A stretch of 64,000 nt of DNA from Lobulomyces angularis (Eukaryota > Chytridiomycota > Chytridiomycetes > Lobulomycetales > Lobulomycetaceae), in assembly GCA_027604685.1 (NCBI GenBank), contig JADHYX010000044.1, positions 3,319-67,318 of the forward strand. Reading direction: 5' to 3'. The notes beneath the pieces are model-generated. The model saw only the letters and a list, made by a program, of their open reading frames with translations. It made no database searches and had not been told where the DNA came from. The stretch's first letter is position 1, and the number at the start of each line of letters is the position of its first letter. Positions 2,671-53,220 of the stretch are shown here, piece by piece. Both the position numbers and the translations under genes were made by a program.

Positions 2671-3078
2671 TAATAAAAAAAGAGAAAAGAACACAAAATA
2701 TAAAAAAAATAAATTATGTATTGTTTTAATAGATTAAAAGGTTGAAAAAACTAAATATAAATCAAGAGTAAACAAAATAACCAGTAATAATTTAAAACTC
2801 AACCATTAAACCAAATAAGGGAGTGAACTCTACAACCAAATAAAATGTTTACCAAATATATTAACGACAATTGAGTTATTAAAACAATTTAAGTAATATA
2901 TTACTTTTTTTTTTAATTTTGTGGAATAAGTTGATAAAAGCTTGTTAAATAAATCATTGTTATTTTTAACATGAAAATTTTAGTGGATCTTTTTTTCAAA
3001 ACCCGAAAACCCTCCATCCAACTTGATTTAAAATAAATTTTGAAAAACACCTTTTTTTATTCAAAAAAAAAAAATAGG
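2671..3078. other. Intergenic AT-rich spacer
   Basis: Low-complexity A/T sequence between two same-strand genes. I see no open frame, RNA gene or repeat worth naming. Confidence 0.5.
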
Positions 3079-6000
3079 ATGCTAACCACACCTACAAATT
3101 CTCGCAGCTGTAACACTAAAATTAATTCTAACAGTAATAACACTACTTCTAGCAGCAAAATACCAGTACCCAAAAAGGGGACAAAACCTTTAAAGTCACT
3201 TGTATCAACTTCCTTTTCTGAAACTGACATTGCATCGTTGTCCATCGATTCACCTACTACATCATTAAAAAAAGTAGTCCAAAATGAAATATATAACTCA
3301 AAAAATAGAACTGATGATATAATTCATGAGTTTAAAAACTTTTCAAAAATTTTTGAAAAAAAAAATTTACAAAAAGAAACTAAATCGACAACAATTTCTC
3401 AAACTCCTCAAACTATTTTAAAAAAATTGAGTAGAATTGAAGGTGTAAGTTTAACCAAGATAAAAAATAAAAAATAAAAATACTAATAAAAAATAATTTA
3501 ATCATAAACTTTTACTTTTTTTTTTCTTTCAATTAGACAAAGACCAACGAAAGTAGCCAAACAGTTGACCATGGTAAAAATTCTGAGTTATTATTACCCA
3601 ACGAATCAAGTAAAAATACTCCAAATAGAATATTAGCACTGGAGGCAAAAAGAGTTACAAAGTTTTTAAATAAAGATTCAGTCGTATTTGATGAAGTAAA
3701 TTGTTTTTTTAATAAGGAAAATGATAACATTTTGGAAGATTTGATAGATTTAAACGATGTAAATGAAAAGTTTGGTATAAATTAATTAATTTATTTTTTT
3801 TTTATTTTAGTTAATTCTTTTTTTTTGTTGACTTTAATTATAGGTAATAATTTAACCTCATCAATTCAAGAACCAAATATTAGTGAATTTAGCAAAATAT
3901 CAACTGCTAATAGTTTTGATTTGACGCCAGCTCTTAAAAGTGCATTGGAGGCCAAAATTGTTTCAAACTATGGAAATGGGGTTCAAAATCGTAATAAAAC
4001 AACATTTAAGGACCAGAGTACCATTGACGAAAATGAAATTATTTTTGACTTTGAAGAAAATATATACTTGGATGAACATTTAAATTTTAACGTCAAAAGT
4101 TTAATAAAAAAGGAATTAACAGCTGATGTGGAGGAAAATATTGATGTGGAAGGCACTACAGATGAGGGGAAGATTAGCGAAAAAATAGACAGTGTTACAG
4201 CCTCGTCTAACGATAAAATGGTTGATGTAAATTTTAAAAATGAATTTCTTTATAAAACACCAGAAGAACTGAAAAGTGAAGAAATTGAAATAAGTGAGAC
4301 ATCAATGGAAGCAGTTTCTTTTAAATGTGGCATAGATGCCATTACCCCCGAACTTTCAGAATCTCTCTTGAACGAGGAGCAACTGGCGAAATTTTTTGAA
4401 GAAGAACCAAAAGACAGTACAACATCAAAAACTGATGACGTTTTGACTTTAGAAGACTTGAGCCAATCTCATTCCAAGTTTTCTGAAAATGACCAATGTA
4501 GAAATAGTTTTTCTGACCAAGAAAATGTTTTGGAAGGTTCATTTAAAACTCAAAATTTCATTACTGAGGATGCTATCAATAGTGATTACAATCTGGAGAA
4601 TTACAACGCTAAAAACCGAAACCCGGATGAAGATGGCGAAATCGAATTAAGTTTTTTTAAAAATGAATTGAATAACAATGTCCCATTTTCAGCAGTTTCC
4701 GAAAGAACTGAAGAAAACAGTATTTTGAAAAGTGAAGATGAAAAAAAAGAGAGTTCTGACGATAGTGATGACCAAAGTGACTACAATTCACCATCTGAAC
4801 AACGGAGGCTTAGAATGTCAAACTCCCTGCCCCATAAAGAAAAAAATTTGACAGAAGAAAAAATAGACTTAACACAAATCAAAAAATCTATTTATTCACT
4901 ACCAAATAAACATATTGTAGCTGGTGAAACAATGAATTTCGTTCCAAAAGAATGTAACTTGGAAATTAAGAAAGTTCTTAAGTGTGATAAACTGGATGAC
5001 AATTTTAACAAGATTACTTCTTCAATTTGCGAAAATGAACAAAAACTTAATTCTGATCAACCTAAAACCGAAATTGTACATATAAAAAGTGAAGAGACCG
5101 TGTTTTTTAACAAATCAGATGATCAAATTTTGCGTCAAGGTCCAGGAATGCTAGATTCTAATACATTCATGGTAAATTCAAAAATGGAAATTGAGATATC
5201 AAATGAATTGCACAAGTTATCTAAAAAGTCGTTGGTGGATTCTGTAACAAAAACAGGGGGTCTTACTGGAGATTTAATGGAAAAAAAGATATCAGGAAAT
5301 TATTACGGATTCAGTGTATGTGAAAAAATCTGTTAGTTTCTAATTTAATTGTTTTTTAAGAAGGATGAAAAACCTGGCCTTAGCGAAGTTACCAGCACAG
5401 AAAACAACAGTGAATATGATATATTATTAGAAAAAATTGAAGCGGAAAAGTTATACCAAAGGTTTCTAATATGAATACAGTTTTTGTTTATCCACAAAAT
5501 ATTTAGATCCAGATCTGAAGCAGAGCAAAATTCCACGTTGGAAAAAAATGTAAAGTTCATTACGCCCATTAATGGAAACGTTACAAAAAAGGTAAAAAGC
5601 AGCATTTTGAAATTAAGATTTTTATTGTGCAATTTTTTTCAGAACAAATCAAGTGTGTTAGGAAACTATGCATTTTTAGATGCAGATGACCTGGAAAAAA
5701 GTAGAAGTATTATTTTTAAGCGAAACCCTAAACTAGATGTGTTAAATGAAACCAAAGTATATAAATTTTCTTTATATCGGAAGGTATCAAATTATTAACT
5801 ATTTTTTTAGTTTAATAGGAAACTTGAAACAGATGTAGATACTGGACTAACTAAAACGAAAAAAAAAAAAAAAACCATTCTATTTACTTCACTCATAATG
5901 TTCCTTTTACTTATGCTGCTATTTCTGTATAGGTAAAAATATTAATATGATTCAGATTTTATTATCTTAATTTTTTTATTAGAAATGTAGAATTTAAAGA

Positions 6001-6238
6001 CAAAATTGATTTTTATTTCAATTCAAGTTTGATAATTCAATATTTCAAAAGAAACGTTTTGGAAACTTTCAATTATTTTTTTTATGAAAAACCGAAATTT
6101 CAAAAATTTAGTCTAGAAGCTTTACTACTCAGGGCCGAAAAAACTTATCATTATTTATATTCCTTGGTTTCTAGTATGGTATCAAACTTCCTTGAATCTT
6201 TTTTAGGTACTAACGATTTGGACTATATACCTTCATAA
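3079..6238 (+). CDS. Large acidic protein with one C-terminal membrane helix
   Basis: Eight exons give 917 aa: 3079-3444, 3537-3774, 3844-5315, 5361-5461, 5507-5591, 5643-5756, 5811-5932, 5983-6238. I do not recognise a conserved domain. The first ~800 residues are hydrophilic, rich in Glu, Asp, Ser and Asn, and probably disordered. A Lys-rich stop-transfer-like stretch is followed by one hydrophobic helix (TILFTSLIMFLLLMLLFLY) about 105 residues from the end. A final ~85-residue segment rich in Phe, Tyr and Leu looks folded. The layout (long cytosolic part, single helix, short lumenal domain) recalls type II or KASH-like envelope anchors, but no KASH signature is visible. The start is the first ATG after stops. 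The 5592-5642 intron is a multiple of three and stop-free. Confidence 0.65.
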
Positions 6239-6551
6239 AGCCTTTAGTATCTGGAGTGTCTTGTTGTTTTTTAATGTTTTAATGTTTTTTATATAGTTAT
6301 GTTAAATACCATATTTTCTGGAACTAAACGTTGTAATTCTAATAAATATATATCTTACAATGGATTGGTTTAATTGTAATGCAAATCCGGCTAAAAAATT
6401 TGTGCTAAATTTGCTATTGTACTAAAATCGATATTATTTTTTTATGGCACTTGTAACCAATCACCGAAAAATTCGAACTTTGGTTAACCATATATAAGTG
6501 ATAAGAATTATCTTGCCAATGAAAAAATTTTATGACATCTAATTTTAAGAA
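6239..6551. other. Intergenic region and promoter of the receptor gene
   Basis: A 313-bp spacer with no coding signal. It holds a TATA-like element just before the receptor gene. Confidence 0.5.
6491..6498 (+). promoter_or_regulatory. TATA-like box
   Basis: TATATAAG lies about 54 bp upstream of the receptor start codon at 6552. In such AT-rich DNA chance matches are common, so this is only a candidate core promoter. Confidence 0.35.
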
Positions 6552-9500
6552 ATGCTAATCTCAATTTCAACTTACTTTTTAGTGAATTTTATTGTTATTG
6601 CTGCTAATTCGAGTTGCAGAAAGTGCCATAGAAGGTAATTTATTTTAATTTATTTTATTTTTTTTGGTATATTGATATCTAAAATAACTTAAAAAAAAAC
6701 AAAAAAAAAAACACAAAACTGATAGAAATGAAATAAAAATAGCTATGGTGACTCATGGGGATTGGTTTGGTAAAGTAAACCGATTCAAGAAAAAAAAAAA
6801 GTATTAACCCAATTTTTTTTTTAGATGGAGGATTTTGGAGTAGTGCATACCGAGGAATAACTGCAGTCGACCAATATTTAAAATTAAATATTACTGGGTT
6901 GTATCCAAATCAGCTCTCGCAACAAGGTATTGTAAATCTTTATCTACAATGAAACAAATTAGATAGTTTTATTAATTTATTTATGTGCTTTTTTTTGATG
7001 CATACAGCTATCGCAGATATCATTTACGATAGTGCCTTTGGAAACAACTCATATAATCATATCGGCGTAACAGTTTCTTCAGATACAGTTGCAAATGCAG
7101 TGCGAAATGTTTCAAGCCAGTAAAAACGAAAAAATAAAAAAACTTAAAAATATACTTTTTTTTTTTTTTTTTTTTTTTATTAAGCGTTCCAGTCATTGCT
7201 TATAACGCTGGAATTGAATTAGCAGCATCATCAAGTGTTTTAGGAATTGAAACCTTCGTTGGTCAACCTGAGTATGAAGCTGGTTTAAAAGCTGGAAAAA
7301 TATTTTTGGAAAAGGTAAAAGTTTTAAATTTTTTATTTTTTTTTTTTGTAATTAATTTTTTTTTTTTTATTTTTTCTTAAGGGATGTAAAAGTGTTTTGG
7401 GATTAATGCATGAACCAAATCAGTTAAATTCGAAAAGTCGTTTTAAGGGATTTCGCACCGGTTTTGTGATGGAAAACAGTTCAAACGTGTTTTCTGAATT
7501 ATTTGTAGACCTCAAACAGATGTCAAGTGTAGAGGCTAAGATAAAAAATGCTTTGGATACCTTAACCCCTTCTGTGGACTGCATTATCTTTCAGAATACG
7601 GCTCTGACAGCTTCAGTGTATTCTGAACTACAGTCAAGAAACAAAACAGGAGTAATTTATTTTGCTGGATGGGATTTGTCTCCGTTGACAGTGGAAATGT
7701 TGGAAAAAGGATATCAACTTTTTGCTATAGATCAACAGGAATTTGTTCAAGTCTATATTCCTCCGCTACTATTCTTATCAAAATATTACTCATATACAAA
7801 GGTTACATCTCCGATTTTATTTTCTGGACCAGCCTTTGTAACCCCTGAAACGATACAGCTAAAAAAGTGTCAGATTGATGCAACTTTACCAAATTGTGAT
7901 TCATTTTTTACAAATAGAACGTTAAATGTTATATTTTTGACACACGGCGCCTTAGGTAACGACCCATTTTGGACTGACGCGTACAATGGAGCTAACTTTG
8001 CTGCAAAAATTTTTAATCTTACTCTTTCCACTTTGAGTGAAACGGATAGAAAAGGTTACGATTTAAAAAAAGTCGACGCAGTTTTAGAGTCTCTCATTGA
8101 CGAGCCAGGACAAAAAGATGCCATTGTATTATCACTTCCTAACACAGCGGAATTTTCAAAAAGTTTAGCAAAAGCAAAAGCAAAAAATATAACAATCATA
8201 TCTTATGGGGCGGGATATCTACAATCACAAAACTTTGGATCTTCCATCCACGTCGGTGCGAATGAAAGGGAGGTTGGTGAAAAGGCTGGAAAAAATTTTA
8301 TACTATTAGGGGCAAAAAATACTGTTGTTATCAATCATGAATATGGAAATAAAGATTTAGAGGTAAAAAAGTTTTTAAAACAGAAATAAACTTAATGAAA
8401 TTTAGGAAAGAATAAATGCATTTACTTTAGCAGTTATTGAAGGTGGTGGAAAAATTAAAGAAAACAAAGAAGGAAAATTGAATTTTTTTGAAATGTCATC
8501 CAGCGTTTTGGACTATACAGCAATCCAAATTCAAAAGTTACTAGAAGAGGATAGCAGTATTGATTCGATAATTTATTTTAACCCTTCAATTGCAAAAGCA
8601 ATTACAATGGCTCTTAAGAATGTCCCAAGAAAAAACTTTATTGTAGGTGGGGTTGGATTATCAAAATTTGTCTTGGAGGCTATTAAGAGTGGTAGTATTG
8701 CATTTACATTCGACGAACAAGGGTTTCTTCAAGTATGCCACAAAAAACCAAAATAAAAAAAAAATTATTTTATTAATACTTTTAACACAGTCTTACCTTG
8801 CATTATCATTAATTCGATTACAAAAGCAATATGGATATGAATTACAAAACGATTTAATCAGCACTGGTCCAACTTTAATAAATTTATCAAATGTTGAAAA
8901 ATTTATATCTGATTGCCGGGGAGATACATCAATTATTAATGGAGAAGAGTGCTGTAAGAATATAAAGAAAATTATAAATAAAAAAAATTACTTGATTTTA
9001 ATTTTTTTTTTTTTGAAGTGGCTTGCCCAGTTGATGGTTGTGGGAGTGGTGTTTGCATGGATGATGGATCTTGTGTTTGTAACCACGGTTGGAGTGGTGA
9101 AACTTGTTCCATACTTCTTGGTTAGTATATTTTTAAAACTGCTGTAATATTAACAGTGCAACTATAAATTTCTTTTTAGAAACTGATCCAATTTATGTAA
9201 AGTATTCTACTGGACCAATCGTTTTAATGTCAATCGCAGCATTTGGAAATTTGCTTTGTTTTGTTTTTATAGTATTTTTTTATGTAAAAAGAGAAGCACC
9301 TCCAATAAAATCAAGTTCCCCAATCTTCATTGTTTTGATGTTAATTGGTTCAATGTTAATATTTTCAACTATTTTCTTGGAAGTAGGTATTCCTACTGTG
9401 GAAACCTGCACTTTGGAGATGTGGTTTTTTGCTATTGGAATCGGACTATTACTAGGGTATTTTTTAAATAAAAAAATTCAATATTTCTGTAGTAACTAAC

Positions 9501-10763
9501 AAAAAAAATTCTGTATATATTTTTTTTTGCTGTATCAAAGGAATCTCTTGGCTAAGACTTACCGAATTCATAAAATTTTTAATAGAACTTTGTCCACCAC
9601 GGCAGTCAGGGGTATCAAGAATACCTTCGTACTGGCATTTTCAGGGTGCATTTTAATAATTGAAGTGGTAAAAATATTTTTTGATATCAATAGAAAGGAC
9701 TTCAAAATAAGTTTATTTTTAGATAATTACTGGAATTTTAACCATACTTGATCCTCCTCATAAGTTTTTGTTAGACAATGGAAAAGGAAACAGAATTTTT
9801 ATATGTTTACCAAGAAGTGGGTCAGCTTTACCAGCTATAATCGTGTTAATTATTTTTAACGGTTCTTTAATGCTCTTTGCTACATACTTAGCAATTAGAG
9901 TTCGAGGTGTAAGTTTATTAACATATTTTTTTTTATTTTAAAAAATTACATTAGGTTGCAACAGCTTATAATGAATCAAAGCACATTTTAATTTCTGGTA
10001 AAACAATATATTTCACACAGTTTTAATACAAGTCAACCTTTTTTAAAAATAGTTTATAATTTGAACTTTGCAGTGATAATACTCCTAGTTTTGGTTTTTA
10101 CCTCAAGTAGTGTAATTGGGGTAGAGCCTAAATTTTTTTTGAATTCTATTGTAATTTTAATTACAAATCTCAGCATTATCTTAAATTTATTTGTACCCAA
10201 AATCATTTCAGGTATTAATCATTTTGAAAGCTTTATTTTTTTTAATTGGGTTTTTAATTATTAGTTTATCAAAAAACTGACCAAACTAAAACCCAATTTA
10301 GCAGCAGTAAAAGTAATGAACCAAATAATCTAAGCGGTATTGTTAGTTCCACTGTAAAAGGGTCTTCATATAATAAGGTATTTTTCTTACGTCTGAATTT
10401 TCTAACGCTCAATTTAAAAAGAGTGCTGCTGATTTTACTAATATTCAAGCTGTATGGACCAAAGGATCTGTAGTCTCGAATATCACAGCAGAGTGGGAAA
10501 TCATGAACTTCAGCTTCATTGTACTGAAAGAACGAAACTTTTTATGGGTACAATCGCAAAACTCCAACTCCATAGCGAAGAGCTTTATGCTTGACCTAAA
10601 CTTAACCACCGGTATTAGAAAGAAGGATGGGACCCCTGTTCTCATTATACGAGAAAAGAAAAGCAATTCAGAATTGAAGATCAGATTCAACAGTCAACAG
10701 GAATATGACATTTTTGTTGATTTGCTTCCACCGGAAGTTTACCATAAAAGTACTGCAGTTTAA
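6552..10763 (+). CDS. Class C GPCR with two tandem periplasmic-binding-protein domains
   Basis: Sixteen exons give 1096 aa: 6552-6634, 6726-6769, 6825-6926, 7008-7119, 7185-7314, 7382-8362, 8406-8732, 8791-8953, 9019-9120, 9180-9456, 9541-9667, 9723-9908, 9955-9997, 10053-10211, 10265-10377, 10422-10763. Order: signal peptide; a sugar-binding-type PBP1 domain (IKIAMVTHGDWFG start, AIDQQEFVQVY hinge motif like RbsB); a second PBP1 domain (LNVIFLTHGALGNDPFW start, FTFDEQGFLQSY); an EGF-like Cys motif (CPVDGCGSGVCMDDGSCVC); the 7TM_3 domain (IKSSSP after TM1, GNLLAKTYRIHKIF after TM3, AYNESKHIL before TM6); a cytosolic tail ending in a PH-like fold (IRFNSQQEYDIFVDLL). Class C receptors signal through G proteins after the Venus-flytrap domain closes on ligand. 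The likely ligand is a sugar or other small solute from prey, host or debris. The PH-like call is tentative. Confidence 0.9.
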
Positions 10764-11483
10764 AAATTTTATTTTTAAAAATCAACTGGATAACTTTTTA
10801 CTATATATATGATTAGTTTCAATTAATTTTTTCTACCAATTTTTTTTTGTTCATTGTTTTTGTTGGTTTTTTAAATATCTTAAAAAAGAACACATAATGA
10901 ATTGTGTAATCCTATATTTTACAAAATTTTCATTTTTTAAAAAAAGTCAAGTTAATCTTTTATCAGCCGTGTGAAAAAATTCACAATATTTAGCATATCT
11001 TAATCTGTGTCATGATTATTACAATTTCAGGAAGATCCCTTGCATACATAAAAATTTTCAATTTACTTATTAAATATATGAATCAAGTGGAAAAATTTTG
11101 TAAAAACGTGGAATTAGTTGCAACGTTTTTAGATTGGAAAAAAATCATACCGGATACTGGCACAACTATGTACTTGAAGATGGCTTAAATAGTATAGCTC
11201 AAATCAGTTTATCTGAAGAAATAATTTCTGATAAAAGTTACCCAACTTTTAAATTTTAGTAAAAGTTGAATTGCAAGTTGCTATTATTGAGGATGGACCA
11301 ATTTTCTCTCCTCAGTTTTTCTTCTCTTCTACATTCTTTAACCCGCAAAAGAAACTTGAAAAAAGTTAAAGCAAATATGTAAGTAAGACTTTAATAAAAG
11401 GAGTTCTTCATTTTTACACCTTCGGTGTAACATAAAAGGGAGTTTTTATCTTCATATGAAAAACGAATAACTTCTGTTACTTG
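10764..11483. other. Gap with coding-like but frame-broken segments upstream of the CNNM gene
   Basis: No complete gene can be supported. An ORF from ATG 11022 to TAA at about 11189 (55 codons) overlaps a second open frame containing the peptide HNYVLEDGLNSIAQISLSEE. A third frame at about 11255-11370 contains VKVELQVAIIEDGPIFSPQF and ends in TAA. These could be exons or a decayed version of an extracellular N-terminal domain of the CNNM protein, as in animal CNNMs. No consistent splice path was found. Confidence 0.35.
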
Positions 11484-13704
11484 ATGAAAAATCACACTAG
11501 AAGTTCTAAAAAAGTTCCTTTTGAATTGGATCCTGTTGAGTATTATACCATTTTATTTGGTATAATCCCCTTATTGGTTATAATAGGAGGAGTTGTAGCT
11601 GGTTAGTGGTTTATTAATAACAAAATTATAAAATTATACTTAAAATTGAAGAATGTTGGATTCTTTGTTAAAGTTTTAATATTTTGTAAAATTTAAAGGG
11701 TTGACAATCGGTTTGATGTCTTTAGATGAAACAAATTTGGTATTCTGTCCTTTTAAAAAATATGATGGAAAACATTATATAATTTGTAAACTGTTCTTAA
11801 AATTGAATATTATATATTTTTTTTATATAGAATATTTTGAAACGTAGTGGAACTAAAACTGAAAAAATTTACGCAGAAAGAATTACCCCAATAAGAAAAA
11901 ATTCCCATCTGCTGCTGGGTATAAAAAAAAATAAAGTTAACATATTCGCTAATGAAATTAGTGACTCTGCTGCTAACAAATACAGTTGTAAATGAAACTT
12001 TACCAGTCTTATTTCATACATTAAATTTGGATGGATACCAAGCAGTATTTATATCAACTACTTTAATATTAATTTTTGGGGAGTAAGTATGAGCATAAAT
12101 ACATATCTTTATTTACAAATTTAAATAGAATAATTCCCCAAGCTGTATGTGCAAGGTATGGGTTGGCAATAGGTAATTTTAAATATAGACTGAAAAAAAT
12201 ATTAAATTTTATTTTTTCTTGCAGGTGCTTTTTTTGCTTGGCCTGTTAGAATTTTAATAACTTTGCTATGGATTGTAGCATATCCTATTGCTAAATTGTT
12301 GGATTTTATTCTCGGAGAATCCCATGGATTAATATACAGGAAAAGTGAACTGAAAGAATTAGTCGAATTGCATGGGGAAAGGTATGCTGGTATGTTAACT
12401 AACGATGAGGTTGACATTATGAGAGGTAAGAGGAAGAGTTATGTTCCCAAAATTTAATGTTCTAAACTGTAAATAGCGGTATTAGAATTAAGGGAAAAAA
12501 CAGTTTTAAATATTATGACTCCAATTGACCATGTATTTATGTTACCACTTCATACTAAGTTGGATCGCAAAACGATATCCGCCTTACTTACAGCGGGTCA
12601 TAGTCGCGTTCCAGTTTATAATGAGGATAAGCAAAATGTTATAGGTGTATTACTCGGTATGCTTCATGTTATAAAAATATCAAATTTTTTAATGATTTAT
12701 CTTAGTTAAACAGCTGCTTTTACTTGATCCAGATGATGGAACTCCATTAGTTGAAGTTAAAATCCGCAGCTTACCTAGAATCCGTCCAGATACACCACCG
12801 TTTGAAATACTGCGAAAATTTCAAAACGGAGGATCTCATATGGCACTTGTAAACATGATTTGGAAAAACTTAGATTTTTTAAAAAATTTTCTTTTTTACA
12901 GGTTGTAGATGAGGCTAAGTTATCATCCGGTGATGATGCGGATACCTGTGAGTATAAACCTTATTGGTTTGCCAAATCACCATTATTTCCATCTGCAGGA
13001 ATGGAGGCTAAGTAAATTGTTTAATTCTTTACTAATCTGATTGTTTTAAGACCATACAAAGTGTTAGGTATTCTGACGTTAGAGGATGTAATGGAGGAAA
13101 TTCTTGGAAGTGAAATCATCGATGAAACTGATGTGTATATTGTAAGAACACAGTTTCTATTTTTTTTAAATAATTTTTAGGATGTTGTGCAACGAAATCG
13201 AGTAGAGTCAGCAGTCAAACAACTCAAAGGAATGAGTCCACACCTTTCCCCTTCTATCACTTCAGATACGTCGCAACACACTAAATTTAACGAAGGAAGT
13301 GAAATTGACCCGTCCGAAACTTCTTGGCTACTCAGCAAAATTAAACCAAATGCACTTCAACAGCAACAAATTCTACGGCAGTCGAAGCAAAGTGGTCAAG
13401 CTAATTTTAACGAAAAAGCTCCTCCAGATGTGGCTATAAACTTGTATGACACTCCTACTAAAAAGGATATTAATCTGTTAACATCTCCGAAGTTAAGAGC
13501 TTCAAGGAAAGGTGAATTACTGAAAGCGGTAATACATAAATTTTTTTTATGATATTTATTTTATTTTTTCTCATTTAGGGAGATATGGCTTCTAAATTGG
13601 AAACACAACAATTTAAAAAATTGATTAAAAGCCCACTATTTTTGGGTAGTGAGTCAAATAATGAAGATAGTGATACTATGAAGCCATTGGACTTGAACGC
13701 ATAA
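11484..13704 (+). CDS. CNNM/Mam3-type DUF21-CBS membrane protein
   Basis: Twelve exons give 536 aa: 11484-11601, 11699-11739, 11831-11918, 11962-12082, 12129-12172, 12225-12425, 12477-12656, 12706-12848, 12902-13011, 13051-13141, 13181-13528, 13579-13704. The N-terminal DUF21 domain carries the family signature [15 protein letters not shown] and TM segments with [18 protein letters not shown] and [18 protein letters not shown] pair follows ([49 protein letters not shown]). The C-terminus is hydrophilic. Fungal Mam3 acts in vacuolar metal (Mn, Mg, Co) handling, and animal CNNMs are Mg2+ exporters or regulators. The start at 11484 matches fungal proteins, which begin shortly before the first helix, but coding-like sequence upstream leaves a longer N-terminus possible. 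Confidence 0.9.
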
Positions 13705-13721
13705 TTCTTATTGTTTATGAC

Positions 13722-13779
13722 GAAATTGAAATTTGCTTTTTGCTATTATTTAAGAAGAAATTGAAATTTGCTTTTTGCT
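13722..13779. repeat. Direct repeat, two 23-bp copies
   Basis: Two identical 23-bp copies at 13722-13744 and 13757-13779, starting GAAATTGAAATTTGC, separated by 12 bp (period 35 bp). They lie just after the stop codon of the CNNM gene, probably in its 3' UTR. This looks like a local duplication. Confidence 0.8.
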
Positions 13780-14009
13780 TTTTGGAGGAAATTAATTATT
13801 TTATAGTAATTAAATTAAGCAATAGAAAAATAAGATAATTTAATTAACCGTTAAAAAAAAAAATAATTAATATAAGTTCTATTTTTATTTATCAAGGTAT
13901 ATATTAATAATGAATTATAAAAAAAAAAAGGAAAAAAATATTTAAAATTTTGTGAATGTAAAAAAAAGGACTACAATGGATGTTTATTGATTCTAACTTC
14001 TTGAAAAAT

Positions 14010-15004
14010 TTAACTTGAATTGATTTGGTTTACAGACTCATATATTTTTTTTAACAGAATCAGCGAAAAAAAGATGTGAAGAGAAACCAAACTTTGACAT
14101 ATGTTGGTAACATTTAAACTATGGGATGTGGCATATAGAAAAATCGCAATTACATCCAAAGTTGAAGTTAAAATGAATAAAGGCACCAGTCTATTTTTTA
14201 GTTTTTGCAGTTTTATTTGAGTAACATAACCGCGGTTATCCCTTTTTATAAGATTAAACACAGTAGTAATCATTAGAATGTTAAAGATCACGTCAATTAA
14301 AGTAGAATATACGCCTAGTTGGAAATTATAGTATAAAAAGTTAATGAGTATAATGTAAAAACCAAATTTCACAAAATAGGTTACCTAAACATGAATAAGC
14401 AATTATTTCTAACATTCTTTTTGAACGATCTTCCACTGCTATAAAACAAAGCGATACTCTAAAGCCAAAAAAAAAGACACTTAACAATCTCAACAAGTGT
14501 ATAAATATTTTGTTTCCTTTGGATTGATTTAACAATAATTTTTCATATCTATGTAATGTTGCAAGAGTCAATACTAAAATTGAAGCCAAAAAAAAAATCT
14601 AAAATTTTTATTAGAATTTAAAAATTGCATTTAATTGAAAAGGATTTTTTTTTTTAAACAAAAAAATATGCATCATAGCATAATCTATTGATACATACCA
14701 TATCTAATATCCCAAAAGTTTTTATAATATTATTAAACCTTAAAATTTGATTATTGAAAACAAATGTAATCTGTGGATTCTCGTCTTGTATCTTAAAGCT
14801 TTCAAAGTTCAAAAATAGGCTAAAGGTTTGAGACCATATACTCAAAAAACTAGCAAAAAATAAGAAATATTTTTGCTTTTTTGGTTTGTAATTTTCTTTT
14901 AAAAAGTTAAAAAAAAACAAAAACACTACAGAAGTATGCAGAATTAAAGTAAGTACATTAAATGTAATATTTAAATTTCTGAGTTGAGGAAGTTGAGTTG
15001 ACAT
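14010..15004 (-). CDS. Orphan seven-helix membrane protein, GPCR-like
   Basis: Three exons on the minus strand (14699-15004, 14385-14598, 14010-14314) give 274 aa. I count seven hydrophobic segments: ITFNVLTLILHTSVVFLFFF; YFLFFASFLSIWSQTFSLFL; a helix across the first intron ending LATLHRYEKLL; IHLLRLLSVFFFGFRVSLCF; STLIDVIFNILMITTVF; LFILTSTLDVIAIFLYA; ICQSLVSLHIFFSLILL. Basic residues follow TM1, TM3 and TM5, consistent with an extracellular N-terminus. The HRYE after TM3 resembles a DRY-type motif. No family was recognised. Another hydrophobic reverse-strand reading frame (14971-15180) overlaps the 5' end, but no in-phase splice joins it, so I start at ATG 15004. Confidence 0.65.
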
Positions 15005-15778
15005 ATGTTGAGTTGTTTGTTTCTTTTGGAGGTATAAAATTGTAAGTAGAACAAAACAATACCTTCATTTGAAAATGTAAATTTAAACCATATATACAGG
15101 GGCAAAATTATAAAGGGGAAAAAATTGATTTGATTGTAAAAAAATAGAACGAAATAATATTTGCAAATAATTCTGAACATTATATCTTGTAAACGCTTTC
15201 CTTAATAAAAAATAAATAACTTTATATATTAAATTCTTGATTTGAAGCAAAATTTTTCTTAATTTTAGAAAACTTAGTTTAGCCCATCTTGAGATGATGT
15301 AATTTCCTAATTTCAGTAATTTCCTATAATTTCAAGATTTTCATTTAGAAGAAAAAAGGATCTTTCATAATTAATTAATTAATTTTGTTGGGATGAAAAA
15401 ATATACTGACAGCACATCTGAATCATGCTAATAACTGCATCCGAATCACACTAACATTAACTTTACACTTCAATATCAATGGTATATATCAGTAACTTAT
15501 ATGAAAAACAAAATTTACTTCAATAAGGCTTTAAAAAAGTGAGTTCTTATAGGAATAATGGACAGGAAGGAAGATTTTTAGTAAAACGCTCCAAAGACCA
15601 GATTCTGTGATAGTTTCAACGTGAAACCTGAACTTTAAGTTTCTTCATCATTTTCTAAATTTTTAAATTAAGACAATTTGTAATTGTGTAACTCAAGGTG
15701 ATAGTAAACATTAAGTTATTCATATGAAAGAAAGGAAAATTTTTATTTGACAATAAAATAACTTTCTTCAAAAAATTT
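15005..15778. other. Intergenic region
   Basis: About 770 bp between two minus-strand genes. Apart from a short hydrophobic reverse-strand frame at 14971-15180, I find nothing I can support. Confidence 0.4.
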
Positions 15779-16909
15779 TTAACAAAAATCCCATTCCTTT
15801 TCAATTTCCTCCCTTAAATCTGTTTTCAACTTGCTTGAAGAGTTTCTTTTCAAAGCAGTTGCTTCATAGCTTTCACTTGCAAAATTGTTAATTTTTTTCT
15901 GACTGCAAATTATAATTGTTAATTCTAATTTTTTATTTCTTAGTATTACCTGGATATTACTTCATCATCAGAAATGTTCAAGAATTCAAATTCAGATTCA
16001 TCAAATTCAGAATTGCACTCATTACATATCACAGAAACTAAGTAAATATTTGTTAGCATTCATCACTTGTTATTTTAAATATGTACCACTGTTACTGTTC
16101 ATATTGAGTTGCATACTGTCACTAATATCAAATAGTGGCAACAGTTTACCATAAATTAAATTATCATTTTCAGGAAACTTTAATTTATAGTCGCTGGGTA
16201 CTTTTATTTCAGCAATTTTTAATGAATCCTGCCATCCCTTTTTCTCATCAATAGGATAATAATATTTGACCGGCCAAAAAATTCTGCGACTGCCGGAAGA
16301 GGTATTGATATTGCAAAAGGAAAGGTTTTGATCTACTTAATTTTCCAGATTTGAAAACATTTTAGGATAATAAGAATAATATACTCACCTTTCGCTGACC
16401 TAACTTCACTCAAATCTCGAATATTACCCAAGTAGCCTTGAATATCATTAAAAGTTAATATTTTTTGGTTCATTCTAGGGTGAATAATGTTATCAAACTA
16501 AAAAAAAAAATTTAATTTTAATCTTTCTTTCCCTAGTACAAAACTATTTAAATACACACTCACAGTTTTGTCAGTATAGCTTTTAATTAAATCACCTATC
16601 AAATAATCAATATTTTCTAATAAATCGTTTAAAAGTGAAGCATTATTATTCAGCAAAATGTAAAAGACTTGCAGATTTTTTAGTTTTTTTTTTAAAATCA
16701 AATAACAATCTTCATCCTTTACAAAATTCAGTAAATTCTAAAAATACAAATAAAATTAATGTAAATATTAGTGAGCTAATTACAAGATATGAATTAGACT
16801 TGGCCAAATACTGTGGCAAGTTTATTTTTGCTCTTTTAAAATTTAAGGTTAATTTTTTTAGATTTTTAAGAATTTTTGCTAAGGGTTTCTTCAGATTTGA
16901 TTGATCCAT
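15779..16909 (-). CDS. Uncharacterised six-exon protein
   Basis: No long open frame marks this gene; it only appears after splicing. Exons: 16784-16909, 16564-16737, 16389-16497, 16087-16335, 15950-16037, 15779-15902 (289 aa). Donors and acceptors are all GT-AG (GTAATT, GTGAGT, GTGAGT, GTACAT, GTAATA). The N-terminal ~110 residues are helical and rich in Leu, Lys and Asn. The middle has an aromatic, better conserved-looking part (RRIFWPVKYYYPIDEKKGWQ, then EIKVPSDYKLKFPENDNLIY). The C-terminal part has a single CxxC (VICNECNSEF), then an acidic segment and a basic tail. There is no signal peptide or membrane helix. Function unknown. The intact frame over five splice junctions makes it a real gene rather than noise. 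Confidence 0.65.
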
Positions 16910-17047
16910 TGATACCAAAGTTATGAACTGAATTTTTAACAGTGGAAAAAGCTAAAATTAATATTGGTAATTGAAGCAAAAAAATTTGTAAGTCTTTGTA
17001 ATAACGATCAAAAAATTGAGGTTGAAGTAAAAAAATGCTGTAAATAA

Positions 17048-17666
17048 ATCAAACTAGTAAATTTTGGAAAAGTTAATGAAGTTTTAAGATGCCTTGATCG
17101 GAAAAGTAAATGGTGGTTGTACCACATTTGGATTAATAGTGCGTGGCCATTAACTTTCTGAACATCAAAATGCTATGAAATGTAAAGATGATTTTTTGAT
17201 CTAATTATACTTTGATTGTTTAGATAATAAAAACAAAACTTCACATAATTTTGTTTATGGTAAAATGTTTATATGTATAAATTCTAGTAAAGTAACAAAA
17301 TTAAGAAAAAAGATTACTTCAAAGTCTATTAAGAATATGCAAATCCAAATTCACACAACCCATTTTTCAAATTAGTACTTGCCAAATTGTTCTCCTACTG
17401 ATCTAAAACCAATCCACAGCTTTTAAGGTTGCTTCAGACTGAACAAATCCGATAATACAAGAACTCATGATAAAAAAGTTTACGAGATGGAAGAAAACGA
17501 AATTTATGAGCAAATGATGAATGAAAACTTAATAAAAAACATTGGTTTAGATGATGTAGCATCATTTAACTTGAAAGTTGCTGTAGAAAATACTTTACTG
17601 TATAGTTTAGGATCTATTTATTACGTCGATAATTTTTTCCCAAATAGTTTTCCCTTTTTTTTTTAA
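17048..17666 (+). pseudogene. Possible relic of a CCT/TCP-1 chaperonin subunit
   Basis: Broken coding-like pieces in changing frames. Around 17095-17158 one frame reads GKVNGGCTTFGLIVRGH and stops; a neighbouring frame continues LSEHQNAMKCKDDFLI. Eukaryotic CCT subunits have, in the same order, a C-T-I-x-L-R-G strand then a helix of the type ILSEVERNLQDAM. From 17430 to 17666 a frame reads through KKVYEMEENEIYEQMMNENL and KVAVENTLLYSLGSIYYVD, which resembles the CCT C-terminus (KTAVETA...RIDD). In between, another frame has NPIIQEL, like the NPIE.v.ELR segment. Several stops and frame changes separate the pieces. The assignment rests on remembered family patterns, not a search. The alternative is a poorly resolved real gene. 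Confidence 0.35.
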
Positions 17667-17732
17667 TTGATGCTTTCGTATAATTTTGTATAGAGTAAGT
17701 TTAAACATCAATTTTTAAAAGAAAATGTATTT

Positions 17733-19578
17733 TTACCAAAATAAAAAACTATTAAAACAAAAGTCATCTTCAATTAAAGGAATTTGAATGTCATCTTTTA
17801 CCCATGGTTTAACAAAAAAGGATTCCGTTTTGCCATTTTTTTCAGCATTTAAGGATATCAAATTTTCACTACTTGGTTCGTTTTTTTTTCTACTATGTGT
17901 CATTCCTGTTGAGACCAAACAGACACCTCTTATTACTGGTTTGAATAAATCACTCAAACTAAAATTTTGTTCTATCGAATTCTCTTCAAAGTAGTTTTTC
18001 TTATAATATCTTAATATTCCAAAATTTTCTTCCCCAGGTTTAGGTTTACTCTTCCATAGTTTTTCTCCTGCTGGATGATCTACAAACAAAAAATTTGCAT
18101 AATAAATTAATTTTTGTTACAATTCACTATACCCAAACTTAAATACATTTTTTCATTTTTTTTGTACATTTCTTCCTCAAATAAAAAAAAATTTAAATGG
18201 AAGTACTTTTCAGTCAAACCAACATATTTAAAGCTATTAATATTATCTATGTTTTTTTTTTTTCCAGATAGAATTTTTTTATGAGTTACTGATCGAGTGA
18301 GGTCTGGATATAAATTTAAAAAATCCTCCTCCTCATCAAATTTATTCTCAAATTCAAAAGAATTTTTAAAGTTGTTTATTATGAGATTGATGGTATTTCT
18401 TCTTAATTTCACATTGCAACAAAATTCTGGTGAGAAAGTTGACAAATGCAATATCTGTAAGTTTTTTAAATTTTGGTTAATTCGAAGTGCAAAATCATTC
18501 AGAAATTCGTAAAACTCATCTAATAAAAAAATTTAAAAATTTTAACTTATTAAGTATGAATATATTACTTGAATCTAATAACAAAATTAATTTTTTCAAA
18601 TTAGGAACTTTTTTAAACAAATACAAAAAGCTTTCTGGTGACAAACTCTTTTTTTCTAAATTTAGTTCTAAACTACGCAGTTTTTTTAAATTGTTTATTA
18701 AACTCACAAAACCTTGAAATAAGGATAATAGTTAAAAAAAAGGTCAGTCAATATATACCTTTATCAAAGGTTCGGTAAGATGGAGGAAAAGTTGAAAAGT
18801 TTTTGGTAGCTCTGTAGTACAATTGCAAGCTTTCCACATTTTTACACTGTTCTAGTAATCACTGAAGTAAAAAAAAAATTTGAAATGTATTTATTTACTG
18901 ATCACTGATATTTGATAATCATCCAACAACAATCCCAAAAATGAAATACTGGATAAGTTTGGCATATTATCTAATAGTACCTGAACCCAATTCAACCCGA
19001 GATGTTCAACTTTAACAAAAAATTAAATATGTTATCTAGAATCCTTCTTTACTTACTAAAAAATTTCTGGTTATCACTATCCAGAGTTAATTTCTTAACA
19101 TATAGAAATGGGTTTTTAATTTTTGAATTTGTTAAATTTTTTCTATTTTCTTTGAAATTTTTTAAACTTGTTAAAAATTTTTTTATTCTTGAATTTAAAT
19201 AAAAATCAGAAATAGAATTTTGATTTTCTAGTTTTTCAGTGTTTCTTTTCTTAGGCTGATATAAAAAATCCACATTTTGCTCTTCCTCCTCTTCCTCAAT
19301 ATTGGACTCTGCAGAAATTTCCTCCTCTTCATCGAATAGTATGTTATCAATTACTTTAAAAGTTAATTCTTGGTAGACCAGAATTGATAAATTGTTGTAG
19401 AAAAAGGAATTTACCAAAAGTAGGCTATAAATTGCCCTAGGTTCTTGTAGAAAAACTGCAAATAAAATACATATAAATGAGAATTTTTCAAAAATATGCA
19501 ATGCATAATACCAATGTTAAGTATTGCTATCCAAATTTCAGGAGGAATTGAATTTTTAAAATTGCAAGAACCTTTCAT
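17733..19578 (-). CDS. F-box/leucine-rich-repeat-like protein
   Basis: Seven minus-strand exons give 515 aa: 19512-19578, 19057-19455, 18899-19009, 18759-18851, 18569-18712, 18133-18519, 17733-18079. The N-terminus has an F-box-like start (SIPPEIWIAILNIV, then REP/YSLLLVNSFFYNNLSILVYQ), as in SCF ubiquitin-ligase adaptors that bind Skp1. An acidic insert (about residues 75-100) follows. LRR-like stretches come next: HLGLNWVQVLLDNMPNLSSI, QCKNVESLQLYYRA, NNLKKLRSLELNLEKKSLS, KVPNLKKLILLLDS, NLKNLQILHLSTFSPEF. The C-terminal ~200 residues are unassigned. The gene is head-to-head with orotate phosphoribosyltransferase, 122 bp apart. The F-box is degenerate, so the adaptor role is probable, not certain. 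Confidence 0.7.
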
Positions 19579-24926: not shown

Positions 24927-26141
24927 TTAATGAAGTGCATCAAAATCACTTAAACTAGCTTCTTCTGCCAGAAAATAGGATTTTTTACTGTCTTTTTTTA
25001 CTTCATAGTCATCATGTTTCTTATTACTTTGATTTTTGCTGGTTCCTCCATACTTGTTGTGTTTATACTTATGATGATGGCGATCATAATGGTTGTTGTA
25101 CCCATATTTTTTATGCTTTTTATAGCCATACCTTTTTACTCTTCCATAGCCACCATGTTTTTTATTTTCATAGCCATAGTTGTCACTGTAGGAACCTTCC
25201 ACATCAAAATTCTGATTGCCGATACCACGTTCATTAAAGTCGTTATTAAAGTCGTCCAATTCTTCATCTGAACTATCACCATCATCATCCAAATTTATGT
25301 AATATTTTTTTTTGTAGTGCTTCTTGTGGTGGTAGTGTTTATTATACTTGCTGTAGCGATTATGATGCTTATATTTTCTGTTTCCATAAGAACTCTAATA
25401 AAAAACGGTAAAAATTATAAAATCTATAGAGGATGTAATTACATAATCCTCTTCATCTGATTCATTATCAAAATACTCAGAATTTAATGATTGTTGTGCA
25501 AGATTACTGGTAGTGGCTTTATAATCAAAATCACTGGAACTCGAAAACAAGTTTGCTTTATTCGTGCCTAACATTTTTAAGCACTACTTAAATTAAATTT
25601 TAAATAACGTACCTTTATTTTCACCATGGTATGAAATAGAGTTGCCATCTTGCTCATCTTCACTGAAAGCCCAAATTAAATCCAATTGACCGCCAGTATA
25701 TTTCAATTCAGATTTTGGTACTGTAAACTCAACAGAAAAACCTAAAATTTCATAAGTTACCAAAAAGAAGTAGCGATACAAACCTGCATCACCTTCATTT
25801 TTTGTGTTGATAGCATTAGCAACGTTTTTTTTAATTTCTGGTTCAGAATGAGAAGAACTGTATCTGGTGGTAAGCTTTACTTTTCCATTTACCACTGAAG
25901 CAGCAAAAATTTTAGCGTCATCCTATTTAAAGGTTATTATTTTATAAAGGAAAAAAAAAAAAACCATGGATCGCCCAAAACCAACAGCTACATATCCAAG
26001 TTTCTGGTTAGCAACGAGCTTAAATCGAACCTGTTGATCTTCTTCCTTTGAAAACAAGCAAAATTCTCTGCTGTCAGAACAGATTGCTTGTGTGGAAACA
26101 AGGGTGAGGAGGAGTAGAAAAGCGAGAACTGATAGGTTCAT
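24927..26141 (-). CDS. Secreted DOMON-domain protein with His/Lys/Tyr-rich tail
   Basis: Five exons give 345 aa: 25965-26141, 25784-25922, 25613-25741, 25443-25567, 24927-25394. A signal peptide (MNLSVLAFLLLLTLVSTQA) leads into a DOMON/CDH-cytochrome-like domain of about 140 residues (FKLVANQKLGYVAVGFGRSM, then DDAKIFAASVV, FSVEFTVPKSEL, LDLIWAFSED). DOMON domains bind haem or sugars. The C-terminal half is low complexity: QSLNS, an acidic stretch, then KYKHHNRYSKYNKHYHHKKH, KKKYY and DDDGDSSDEE, and a second HHHKYKHNKYGG-type run. His, Lys, Tyr and Asp dominate. The same module flanks the repeat protein at 51.5-53.2 kb. The gene is divergent from the tyrosinase, 344 bp between starts. The 42-nt intron 25742-25783 is in frame and stop-free. 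Confidence 0.85.
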
Positions 26142-26485
26142 GTAAATTTAAAAAGAGAAAGCTTCAATCAATACTGTTGAGGCAAGAAGTTGACAGATAT
26201 TTAAATGTTATGAAATCAAATTAAGCAAATTTGTTTATTACACAGCCTTTGTTGTTGAGTGAAATTTGGCTGTACATGCAAATATCTTATTAATCCTTCT
26301 CAACTTATCTTACATATTATTTCACATTACCAATTTTATTTCATCAAAAAGGCCTTTAACTTATCAAAAGAAACTAATTACTTTCAACCACAATTAAGCT
26401 TTTATTTTTTTCAAATTTCTTAGCTTTCTACTTTCTGCAATCCTTGCTATAACTTCAATATTTTCCTACTTTAATAACTCGCAAT
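26142..26485. promoter_or_regulatory. Shared divergent promoter region, DOMON protein and tyrosinase
   Basis: A 344-bp spacer between the start codons of two oppositely oriented genes for secreted proteins. It is CT-rich on the tyrosinase side (TCTTAGCTTTCTACTTTCTG) and lacks open frames. A shared promoter, and so co-expression, is plausible from the arrangement but not shown. Confidence 0.45.
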
Positions 26486-28013
26486 ATGCGCTCGTTGTTG
26501 CTTTTACTTGTGTTTCTCACTTCCTTTGCATTTTCACAGTACCAATACCTCTCCAATAATGAAGTGAAATCAAACCTTAAACACTCCAAAAATAACCTAC
26601 CTGCATATGGTTCTACAACGAAAAAAAAAATTAACCTTCCTGCCTATGGCTCTACAAAAAAAAAAAATGAAAACCATTCTCCTTTGGAAGATGAAAATTT
26701 TGATGACGATGATGACGAGGACACACCTGTGGATCCAAAACATGAAGCTACCGGTTACCATGAAAAATTTAGAAAATATAGTGATCCCCCTTTCACACAT
26801 AATCACTGCAAAGGTATTTCATTATTTTTCAATTTATTAACAATTTTGATTCTAAAAGAAACTACTATTAGAAGAGAATGGAGGCAGTTGACTGAAAAGG
26901 AAAGACAACGATATCTAGAAGCCAATTTATGTCTTTTGAATTCTCCTTCAGAAAGGAAAGGTGGAAAAGGAAGCTTATATGATGGTAAAGGACTTTTTTT
27001 TATTTTATTAATAATTTTAAAAGATTTCGTGTGGCATCACTGGGATATTGCTACTTCTATTCATTTTACTCCACTTTTTTTACCCTTTCATAGAGCTTTT
27101 ATCATCGCATATGAAAATGCGTTAAGAACTTGTGGGGATAATAATGAATTTGACGATGTCAGGGTAAATATATATTTTGTATATATATGATAATAATCTT
27201 AAAAATTAAGTTGACATATTGGGATATCGCTTTAGATAGTTTTGCTCCATCAAGAGCAATAGTCTTTCAAGAAAAGTACTTCGGTGGTAATGGGAATAAA
27301 AATGATGACTATTGTTTACAATCTGGCACCTTTGGTGGAAGGTATAAAAATAAACTTTTTTTTTTATAAATTACCATTAGAATTGCTGAACACCCTAAAA
27401 AGCATTGTTTAAGAAGAAATTTCGATTTAAATCAGATTTATACTAAAGGAAATGCTGAGGCGACGATAGGTGCAATGTTTACAGATGAATTATTAGAAAT
27501 GTCCAAAAAAAATGGAGAAATTCGTCAATTTGATTATTTCAGAAATTTACTGGAAAGTACGATTCATGAAGCTTTACACTTTGGTATTGGTGGCAATAAA
27601 GGTGATATGAGTAAAGCTGATACTGGTATTTAAAAACTTTCCCTTTGAATCTAATTATTTTTAAAGCGCCAAATGATCCCATTTTTTGGTTACATCATGG
27701 AAACATAGATAGAGTTTGGAGTGAATTTCAAAAAGCATTTCCTAAATTGGCTCACACCTATAATGGAAAGAATGAAGATAAAAAAGATGTCAATGAAAAT
27801 GATGAAATCGATCTGGGCCCTCTAAAAAAATATTTACCATACGGTTGGGATAAAAAAATTCTTAGAGTAAAAGACGTTTTTGATATTAAAGAATGGTGTT
27901 ACGATTTTTCAAAGAGTGTTCGATGGGGTGAAGATGGCGAAATCAAAGACAACATTGGCGAAAGTAGAATATATAGAGGATTTTTAGTTGCTAGTCAAGG
28001 TCCTTTTCATTAA
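26486..28013 (+). CDS. Secreted tyrosinase
   Basis: Six exons give 438 aa: 26486-26813, 26859-26984, 27024-27163, 27211-27341, 27381-27625, 27667-28013. A type-3 copper enzyme that oxidises phenols and tyrosyl residues to quinones. The signal peptide is MRSLLLLLVFLTSFAFSQ. A repeated linker (NLPAYGST-T-KKK twice) and an acidic run (DENFDDDDDED) precede the catalytic domain. CuA ligands: His in HNHCK, WHHWD and PFHRAF; CuB: ESTIHEALHFGIGG and APNDPIFWLHHGNIDRVW. The domain matches the short secreted form, without an obvious C-terminal lid beyond ~110 residues. It lies next to the divergent DOMON gene, whose product carries a Tyr-rich tail that could be a substrate (inference). Likely roles are melanin formation or protein crosslinking in walls or adhesives. 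Confidence 0.93.
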
Positions 28014-51526: not shown

Positions 51527-53220
51527 TTAATATCCATAATCCTTATTATAATAATGTTTTTTGTGCTTTTTATAATGCTTTCTGTAACTATAATGTTTTT
51601 TGCTCCTGTATTTGTTGTAACTATCATAACTTCCATAACTATCTTGAGAATTTAAACTTTGTTCATTTTCATCTCCTTCATCTCCTTCATCGTCGTCCTC
51701 GTCGTCATCATCATCATCTTCAAAATTAACATCATCGTCATCATCGTCAAAATCAGCAGCTAGTTAAATAAAAAGAAAAATTATTAAACTATAAGTTCAG
51801 ACCACTTTCTTTACCTTCAGGTCTCAATGCCACAGCATTTCTTTCCTCCCTCCCGTCTTTGTATGTTATCCATGTCTCAGTGCGATCACCAAAATTTCCC
51901 TCTTGTGGAGATGAAAACACTTCAGTTAATGTACCTTCTGCATCTAAGTTCCATTTATAGTCTCTTGCCCACTCCGGGGCATAGGATGGCCATCCTTTTG
52001 TACCAATATGATGTGGGGGGCCACTAAATATTTTAGTGATATGTAAACAGTAAAAATTGTTAAATTTCTCTTACGGATAAGCTGTAAGTTCTTGCGCATC
52101 AACAGATGATGAAGTCAAGGATTGCTCTGCTTCACTCCCTTCGTTTTTACATAAGATTAACCAACAAAAAAAAATAAAATTTCACCTTCAGCATTTAAAG
52201 CAACGGCACTTTTTTCTTCTCTACCGTCTGCGTAAGTAACCCATGTTTCAGTACGATCACCAAAATTTCCTTTTTGGGGGCCAGTAAAGATTTCAGTTAA
52301 GGTACCCTTTGAATCCAAAGTCCATCTATAACGCCTAGCCCATTTTGGTGCATATTTTGGCCAACCTTTACTTCCTCGTTTGTGTGGCGGTCCGCTGATT
52401 TATAGAAAATCGTTTAATTAATTTTAATATAAATTTTTTAATTACGGATAAACTGTAGCTTGTTGCGAAACCAATGATTGCTCTGATGTTGCATCATCTT
52501 CATTTACATCTAATAAAGATAAAATTGGTATCGTGAACTTTTTAAAATTGCAAACCATCTGCTCTCAAAGCTACGGCACTTTTTTCCTCCCTACCGTCTG
52601 CGTATGTTATCCAAGTTTCTTTACGGTCACCAAAATTGCCCTTTTGAGGTCCAGTGAAAATTTCAGTTAATGTTCCTAGTTGCAAAGATTTATCAAAAAT
52701 TACTCAAATAATTATAATACCTTGCTTATCAATCTTCCATTTATATTTGGTGGCCCACTTAGGCGCATACTTGGGCCAGCCCTTGAACCCTTTATGGTGA
52801 GGTTTTCCACTATAGTTGTAAAGTTAAACAAAACAAATTCAGAAAAAAGTGGAGTTTATAGCTTACGGATAAACTGTTAACGAAGAAGAAGTTAAGCTGG
52901 CAACTTTTGAATCAGCGGTTAAAGACTGATCTTGATCTTCATCATCTTCATCATCTGTAGCATCAGCTGAAAGATAGTATTTTTTTTTGTGGTGTTTATG
53001 GTGTTTTTTATGATGATAACGACTATATCCTTTATGCTAAATATTAAAAATGAGTTTTTTATTTTGTAAAAAATAGCAGTGAATATACCCTGTTGTACTT
53101 ATGTTTATAATGTTGAACATAGTTGTCGTCACCTGCATAATAACTAGAAGGAGCGGAGAGGACTAGTAGTGATGAAGTAGCAATAATAACCAAGGTTGCT
53201 AACGAAGAATTTATTAACAT
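51527..53220 (-). CDS. Secreted three-repeat protein with His/Lys/Tyr-rich and acidic flanks
   Basis: Nine exons give 429 aa: 53089-53220, 52867-53036, 52721-52809, 52556-52675, 52446-52509, 52186-52394, 52075-52138, 51815-52023, 51527-51759. The signal peptide is MLINSSLATLVIIATSSLLV (through SAP). A basic aromatic segment follows (HYKHKYNR, YSRYHHKKHHKHHKKKYYLS), then an acidic run. Three copies of a ~70-residue unit start at YPGK, YPGP and YPGP: GWPKYAPKWAxxYxW, GTLTEIFTGPQKGNFGDR, ETWITYADGREEKSAVAL. They are separated by acidic EQSL(T/V)S linkers. A long Asp/Glu run and a QSLNS...YRKHYKKHKKHYY tail end the protein. I do not recognise the repeat. Intron positions repeat with the units, so the copies arose by internal duplication. 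The flanks match the DOMON protein tail. Confidence 0.88.

Follow-up and report, generated by a model that had tools for sequence, protein, structure and literature searches.

A divergent tyrosinase and DOMON-tail gene pair, and a family of Tyr/His/Lys-rich secreted-type proteins, in the chytrid Lobulomyces angularis: candidate parts of an extracellular coat

A mussel-derived peptide is said to condense. The published accounts of other systems, used here for the parts covered, describe condensation of the His/Tyr-rich proteins of the squid beak (PMC6884462), quinone tanning of the schistosome eggshell by tyrosinases plus Tyr-rich precursors (PMC2758302), and conversion of a caddie-protein Tyr to dopaquinone by tyrosinase, followed by aggregation (PMC6312201). 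The abalone shell matrix contains low-complexity proteins alongside a tyrosinase and a DOMON ferric-chelate-reductase-like protein, for which the authors propose a redox function in cross-linking (PMC6003135). Two chytrid papers treat tyrosinases as CBM18 proteins, and one of them as melanin enzymes (PMC3569864, PMC5364385). Our searches of the open-licence literature found no report that links a chytrid tyrosinase to secreted proteins rich in Tyr, His and Lys. Here we analyze such a candidate association in a 64,000-nucleotide stretch of Lobulomyces angularis DNA (assembly GCA_027604685.1, contig JADHYX010000044.1, positions 3,319 to 67,318), hereafter the window, where a tyrosinase gene and a gene for a DOMON protein with a Tyr/His/Lys (Y/H/K)-rich tail are transcribed divergently. 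The pair and the Y/H/K-rich tails, as described in a first-pass annotation of the window, are confirmed as real. A mussel-like, enzyme-hardened coat built from these components is plausible but unproven.

The divergent gene pair

The gene models are our own, with short introns (39-48 nucleotides in the divergent pair) spliced out, and secretion was judged by eye from the N-termini of the tyrosinase, DOMON, third and other tail proteins. Contig labels (C44, the window's contig of 83,815 bp, and C49, C113, C151, C357, C430 and C520) refer to the same Lobulomyces angularis assembly. The splice models of both genes place 344 bp between the two start codons, as the first-pass annotation had claimed, and both products begin with signal-peptide-like sequences, which agrees with its description of a secreted tyrosinase and a secreted DOMON protein.

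The DOMON assignment is clear (PF03351, 45.1 bits against a cut-off of 32.7, E-value 1.5e-11), and the model is identical to the deposited protein (P0023). The tail comprises 195 amino acids, 155 of them encoded by the last exon by itself, and is rich in Tyr, His, Lys and Asp, as had been noted: 12.3, 7.7, 14.4 and 10.8%, respectively, compared with 3.1, 1.8, 8.7 and 5.3% in a background of 27,308 residues from 26 gene models on other contigs, other tyrosinases included. Six DOMON domains were found in the genome. Met59 and His144, which we take to be the axial ligand pair of haem b by analogy with cytochromes of the cellobiose dehydrogenase (CDH) type, are invariant in the five that were aligned; the other four of these come from our own gene models, and the sixth (L026, on C53) was omitted for its poor model. 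The CDH-cyt Pfam match of the DOMON head is weak (E 4.3e-5, below the family's cut-off), and a PDB sequence search with the protein returned no match at E≤1. The single DOMON paralogue that was scanned is a DOMON-cytochrome b561 protein, and two more look alike by eye; the protein of the window therefore reads as a DOMON head minus its membrane part, and looks like one in which the tail has taken that part's place.

The tyrosinase consists of a signal-like start, an extension and a catalytic domain (PF00264, E 2.3e-34); this is the sole Pfam family at E≤1, CBM18 being absent. All six copper-binding His residues are present (157, 165, 174, 303, 307 and 333 in the numbering of the deposited protein, P0001). 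All 11 relatives and paralogues in the alignment keep the three at the CuA site, and 10 of them keep the three at the CuB site; the remaining sequence, P0005, stops short of that site. Glu299, presumably the water-keeper position, is kept in 10 of 11. Our model and P0001 part at a splice acceptor, where they differ by a single leucine; a relative (P0002) has the leucine. The best-matching tyrosinase in the PDB sequence search was 6j2u (E 4.1e-24). Outside the genome, 21 proteins matched, the enzyme's own record among them, and the nearest other match was a protein sourced from the Joint Genome Institute (JGI; 65% identity over 79% of the query), encoded on a 1,237-bp contig that is too small to hold neighbours. 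These findings support a competent-looking tyrosinase of secreted type.

The DOMON protein is deposited under Lobulomyces angularis (HDU92_005817), and the tyrosinase and the third protein described below under Clydaea vesicula (HK099_000009 and HK099_000017); both genera belong to the family Lobulomycetaceae, Chytridiomycota. The HK099 and HDU92 records are near-identical here, and one may be misnamed or mixed. Outside protein searches, in which candidates share exact words with the query (the best 7,991 candidates being scored for the third protein), returned a single match for the DOMON protein and a single match for the third protein, in either case to a Lobulomycetaceae record that is the same as the query or near-identical to it. 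Homology to mussel foot or squid beak families was not found for these two proteins, the tail proteins on C520, C151 and C49 not having been searched outside the genome.

A family of tail proteins

The first-pass annotation had also pointed to a protein at 51.5-53.2 kb with a like tail, and this tail type is in fact found at both ends of the protein. From the N-terminus it runs through a Y/H/K block, an Asp/Glu (D/E) block, three repeats, a second D/E block and a second Y/H/K block, and it differs from the deposited protein (P0022) at one residue of 429. No Pfam family exceeds its cut-off. The repeats follow the pattern GPPHxxGxKGWPxYAPxWAxxYxW...GNFGDRTETWxTYxDGREE, with 71% identity between the second and the third. 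The best structure model of the repeat domain is a four-stranded beta sheet with a predicted local distance difference test (pLDDT) score of 75.8, the four other models scoring 42-56, and its best match in a PDB fold search, at E 0.15, fell short of the E≤0.1 threshold.

A maximum of more than 14 Y/H/K per 30 residues was reached in only 3 of 41 gene models, namely the third-gene model (24), the DOMON protein (23) and the tyrosinase on C357 (17). These 41 models (41,701 amino acids, several models fusing neighbouring genes) cover the window, seven tyrosinase neighbourhoods and 7.5 kb of C520 minus its tail gene. At background composition, the binomial probability of at least 17 Y/H/K in 30 residues is ~4e-8 per stretch.

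Proteins combining Y/H/K and D/E blocks number at least five in the genome: the DOMON protein, the third protein and three located through pattern searches. The one on C520 (264 amino acids, single exon) is secreted-type and nearly all of tail-type composition, whereas those on C151 and C49 (180 and 179 amino acids) are near-identical, secreted-type products of duplicate genes. These pattern searches discriminated weakly: YAYYAYAARAARYAYYAY gave 14 matches against 8 in the reversed control, TAYGGNTAYAARAARNAY gave 7 against 7, and YAYAARAARCAYTAYNRN gave 11 against 12, two of the 11 being the loci already known on C44. Matches to YAYYAYAARAARYAYYAY and TAYGGNTAYAARAARNAY were examined in frame, and the nine YAYAARAARCAYTAYNRN matches outside C44 were left uninspected; five is therefore a lower bound on family size. 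Genome searches with the C520 protein and with the third protein recovered only their own loci, and a search with the C151 protein recovered C151 and C49.

The C151 and C49 duplicates differ at 20 synonymous and 7 non-synonymous positions, giving a ratio of non-synonymous to synonymous change (pN/pS) of 0.08. They are under purifying selection, which thus maintains the amino-acid composition of the two proteins. Their introns are 88-95% identical (ungapped columns), and within 300 bp upstream the two genes agree at 186 of the 282 bases aligned, the nearest ~90 bp being similar and the farther flank dissimilar. They therefore do not look like two alleles with shared flanks. Residue order is common to some tails beyond local composition: when tails were aligned against local shuffles in 12-residue windows, with C49 left out, 4 of 21 pairs reached z≥3.0, the top pair being the DOMON tail and the N-terminal block of the third protein (z 4.8, equalled in 0 of 300 shuffles). 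Our combined findings support the view that the Y/H/K plus D/E block proteins are a real family. The tails of these predicted proteins are block polyampholytes, and selection has conserved them in the one duplicate pair.

Table 1 Positions of the features described (window coordinates unless a contig is named)
Feature	Position	Strand	Basis or detail
DOMON-tail gene, 345 amino acids	24927..26141	-	Splice model (4 introns, 42-48 nucleotides), Pfam
DOMON-tail exons	26141-25965, 25922-25784, 25741-25613, 25567-25443, 25394-24927	-	
Signal-peptide-like start and DOMON domain	25613..26141	-	Pfam, alignment
Tail exons 4 and 5, Y/H/K blocks alternating with D/E blocks	24927..25567	-	
Shared upstream region of the divergent pair	26142..26485	.	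344 bp
Tyrosinase gene, 438 amino acids	26486..28013	+	Splice model, Pfam
Tyrosinase introns (five, 39-47 nucleotides)	26814-26858, 26985-27023, 27164-27210, 27342-27380, 27626-27666	+	
Tyrosinase N-terminal extension	26537..26809	+	NLPAYGST-KKK unit twice, plus D5E block
Third secreted-type protein, 429 amino acids	51527..53220	-	Splice model
Three orphan repeats of ~69 amino acids	51816..52808: 52722-52808 plus 52557-52673; 52187-52393; 51816-52022	-	
Duplicate genes, Y/H/K plus poly-Asp secreted-type protein	C151:29423-30182; C49:30697-31445		

Elsewhere in the window, at ~7100-10800 (+), we observed by eye a periplasmic-binding-like domain (BMP/PnrA style) followed by a multi-helix membrane part, an arrangement like that of class C receptors.

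Tyrosinases elsewhere in the genome

The genome contains 18 tyrosinase matches, which we grouped by reading into nine genes on eight contigs. We looked for tail sequences in 15.7-20 kb on each of the seven contigs other than C44 (133,575 bases in total). Among the eight other tyrosinase genes, one, on C357, carries a tail in frame, one, on C151, has a tail gene ~11 kb away, and six have neither in the stretches covered. The check proposed in the first-pass annotation, that tyrosinases should neighbour such proteins elsewhere, was therefore mostly negative within this genome. In our own gene model, the exon chain of the C357 gene encodes a catalytic domain, a C-terminal region common by eye to other tyrosinases, and His/Lys/Glu/Tyr repeats. 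At least three tyrosinases (on C151, C113 and one of those on C430) have, by eye, a hydrophobic C-terminus like that of glycosylphosphatidylinositol (GPI)-anchored proteins, which would fit attachment to the wall.

A recurrent pairing of tyrosinase with a tail gene or with a DOMON gene was considered and rejected: DOMON matches (on C5, C44, C53, C186 and C285) and tyrosinase matches overlap on C44 only. On C430 (positions 1-17869; L029, L030), two tyrosinase genes lie beside a 3,720-amino-acid nonribosomal peptide synthetase (NRPS) gene model, whose first 756 amino acids, the part scanned, contain AMP-binding (E 6.2e-67), PP-binding and Condensation domains. This layout resembles a chytrid biosynthetic cluster.

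A possible coat and its alternatives

We tentatively propose, with confidence somewhat short of even, that the tyrosinase and the Y/H/K plus D/E tail proteins belong together in an extracellular coat, which forms as the tails condense and which the enzyme hardens. The opposite-charge blocks, together with Tyr and His, would drive condensation of the tail proteins at the cell surface; the tyrosinase would oxidise tail Tyr to 3,4-dihydroxyphenylalanine (DOPA) and its quinone, and the quinones would couple to Lys and His. The hardened layer may be a rhizoid holdfast or the wall of a cyst or sporangium. Because its two predicted haem ligands are present, the DOMON head could be a secreted b-type cytochrome akin to the DOMON-cytochrome b561 proteins; the tail would anchor it in the matrix, where it might tune the redox state of catechol and quinone or of iron. 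The crosslinked-matrix set suggested in the first-pass annotation is partly supported: the competent-looking enzyme, the tail family and a second tyrosinase with a His/Lys/Glu/Tyr tail stand on its side, and a recurrent gene pair does not. A single genome holds, by eye, both secreted-type Tyr/Lys/His-rich candidate precursors and a secreted-type phenol oxidase, the combination sought in quinone tanning.

Several findings weigh against a tyrosinase-hardened coat. The tyrosinase of the window is the only one of nine that adjoins a separate tail gene; in the 15.7-20 kb covered on each of the seven other tyrosinase contigs, no Y/H/K-rich stretch exceeded the threshold except the C357 tail, and neither C49 nor C520, which is 11 kb long, appeared among the tyrosinase matches listed. 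The tyrosinase contigs without C44 make up 612,836 of 20,758,374 bases, and the chance that at least one of the three other tail genes falls on such a contig is ~9%, an estimate that treats the three as independent although two are duplicates. The k-mer CACAGCC/GGCTGTG occurs in four of five focal promoters (of the DOMON/tyrosinase, third, C520, C151 and C357 tyrosinase genes) compared with 1 of 24 in the background, but 56 of 200 random sets equalled this result, and no promoter motif rises above chance. Neither the C357 tail (at most z 0.5) nor the N-terminal extension of the window's tyrosinase, which resembles the tails in style (best z 1.9, with C151), aligns clearly with the tails. Multi-domain molluscan hemocyanins were the top PDB sequence matches of the tyrosinase. 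The single-sequence structure model of the DOMON protein (pLDDT 39.3) is too poor for the fold of a haem pocket or for a fold search. Finally, the first CuB His is followed by Glu (Glu304) in P0001 and the 65%-identical P0002 only, and by Asn, Gly or Ala in the other eight sequences that include the site; Streptomyces tyrosinase has Asn191 there, and Gly at the corresponding residue is reported to lower activity (PMC6312201). With Glu in place of the Asn of Streptomyces, monophenolase action of this enzyme on Tyr is not certain.

The tails may instead act without the tyrosinase, by condensation through charge and Tyr/His or by binding of metal (Fe, Cu, Zn) or mineral, giving a DOPA-free coat or adhesive while the adjacent enzyme serves otherwise. 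Blocks of Lys/His and D/E do alternate in the tails, and four of the five tail genes do not adjoin a tyrosinase. In the diatom Amphora, Tyr/Lys-rich surface proteins occur in a species reported to be without DOPA, and the parts of that study covered here raise complex coacervation as an alternative and caution against assuming DOPA (PMC4220933). However, the divergent pair exists, and the C357 tyrosinase carries its own His/Lys/Glu/Tyr tail; we regard a tyrosinase-independent role as unlikely, if well worth considering. The same C357 tail also counts against the idea that the two genes are chance neighbours, in which the tyrosinase would work, as in other fungi, in melanin formation or some other oxidation of phenols and would have no tie to the DOMON-tail gene. 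Two of the nine tyrosinase genes stand beside the NRPS gene, so that tyrosinases have several contexts in this genome; the pairing does not recur, the genes have no promoter motif in common above chance, and Batrachochytrium tyrosinase-like genes carry CBM18 and are tied by the authors to melanin in the part of the paper covered (PMC3569864). Yet both products are secreted-type, the genes have 344 bp in common and both proteins contain D/E blocks, and we consider mere adjacency rather improbable.

Much less credible is that the DOMON-tail protein is a caddie-like partner of the tyrosinase, which would supply the enzyme with copper or shield it as in Streptomyces, its His-rich tail serving as a copper store. 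The gene does adjoin the tyrosinase, the tail contains 15 His, and Streptomyces-type tyrosinases solved with caddie are among the PDB sequence matches of the enzyme (1wx2 group, E 2.1e-21; PMC6312201). Against this, the other tail genes do not adjoin a tyrosinase, none of the other eight tyrosinase genes lies next to a gene for a separate tail protein in the stretches covered, and, to our knowledge, caddie proteins are not DOMON proteins. We also think it very improbable that the tails arose by neutral drift of low-complexity sequence, AT-rich as the genome is. The window is AT-rich (24-34% GC) and repeats expand readily, but AT content gives no preference for His codons, synonymous codons are mixed in the tails, and the pN/pS of the duplicates argues against it.

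The broader form of the proposed coat, an independent mussel- or squid-like system in early-diverging fungi with condensing tails, tyrosinase cross-links, redox control by a haem DOMON protein and some tyrosinases bearing their own cross-linkable tail, is doubtful on present evidence. If the tyrosinase does harden these proteins, a chytrid would possess a means of protein tanning convergent with those of mussels, squid and flukes. It would offer short alternating-charge-block sequences for bio-adhesive work and a testable basis for the toughness or sticking of chytrid cysts or sporangia, and the fusion of a DOMON head to a tail would imply that the coat matrix itself can have redox control built in.

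The focal enzyme shares its chytrid origin with the Batrachochytrium CBM18-tyrosinases (PMC3569864, PMC5364385) but is without CBM18. Like DOMON-cytochrome b561 (CYBDOM) proteins and CDH cytochrome domains, the DOMON head has a Met/His pair; unlike them, it has a tail instead of a membrane b561 or dehydrogenase part. As in mussel foot proteins and the His-rich proteins of the squid beak, for which phase separation is described in the accounts covered, the secreted-type chains are rich in Tyr together with Lys or His, whereas the chytrid proteins add D/E blocks and a DOMON head, and no sequence relatives of the DOMON and third proteins were found there. The abalone shell matrix has the same three kinds of component, but as separate proteins in a mineralised shell, and the parts of that study covered describe no DOMON protein fused to a Y/H/K tail (PMC6003135). 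In the schistosome eggshell, an animal system in which the precursor Tyr is often followed by Gly, a role for tyrosinase is reported, whereas here that role is proposed; in both, a secreted-type phenol oxidase occurs with Tyr-rich precursors, here candidate ones, and in the eggshell Lys is a coupling partner (PMC2758302).

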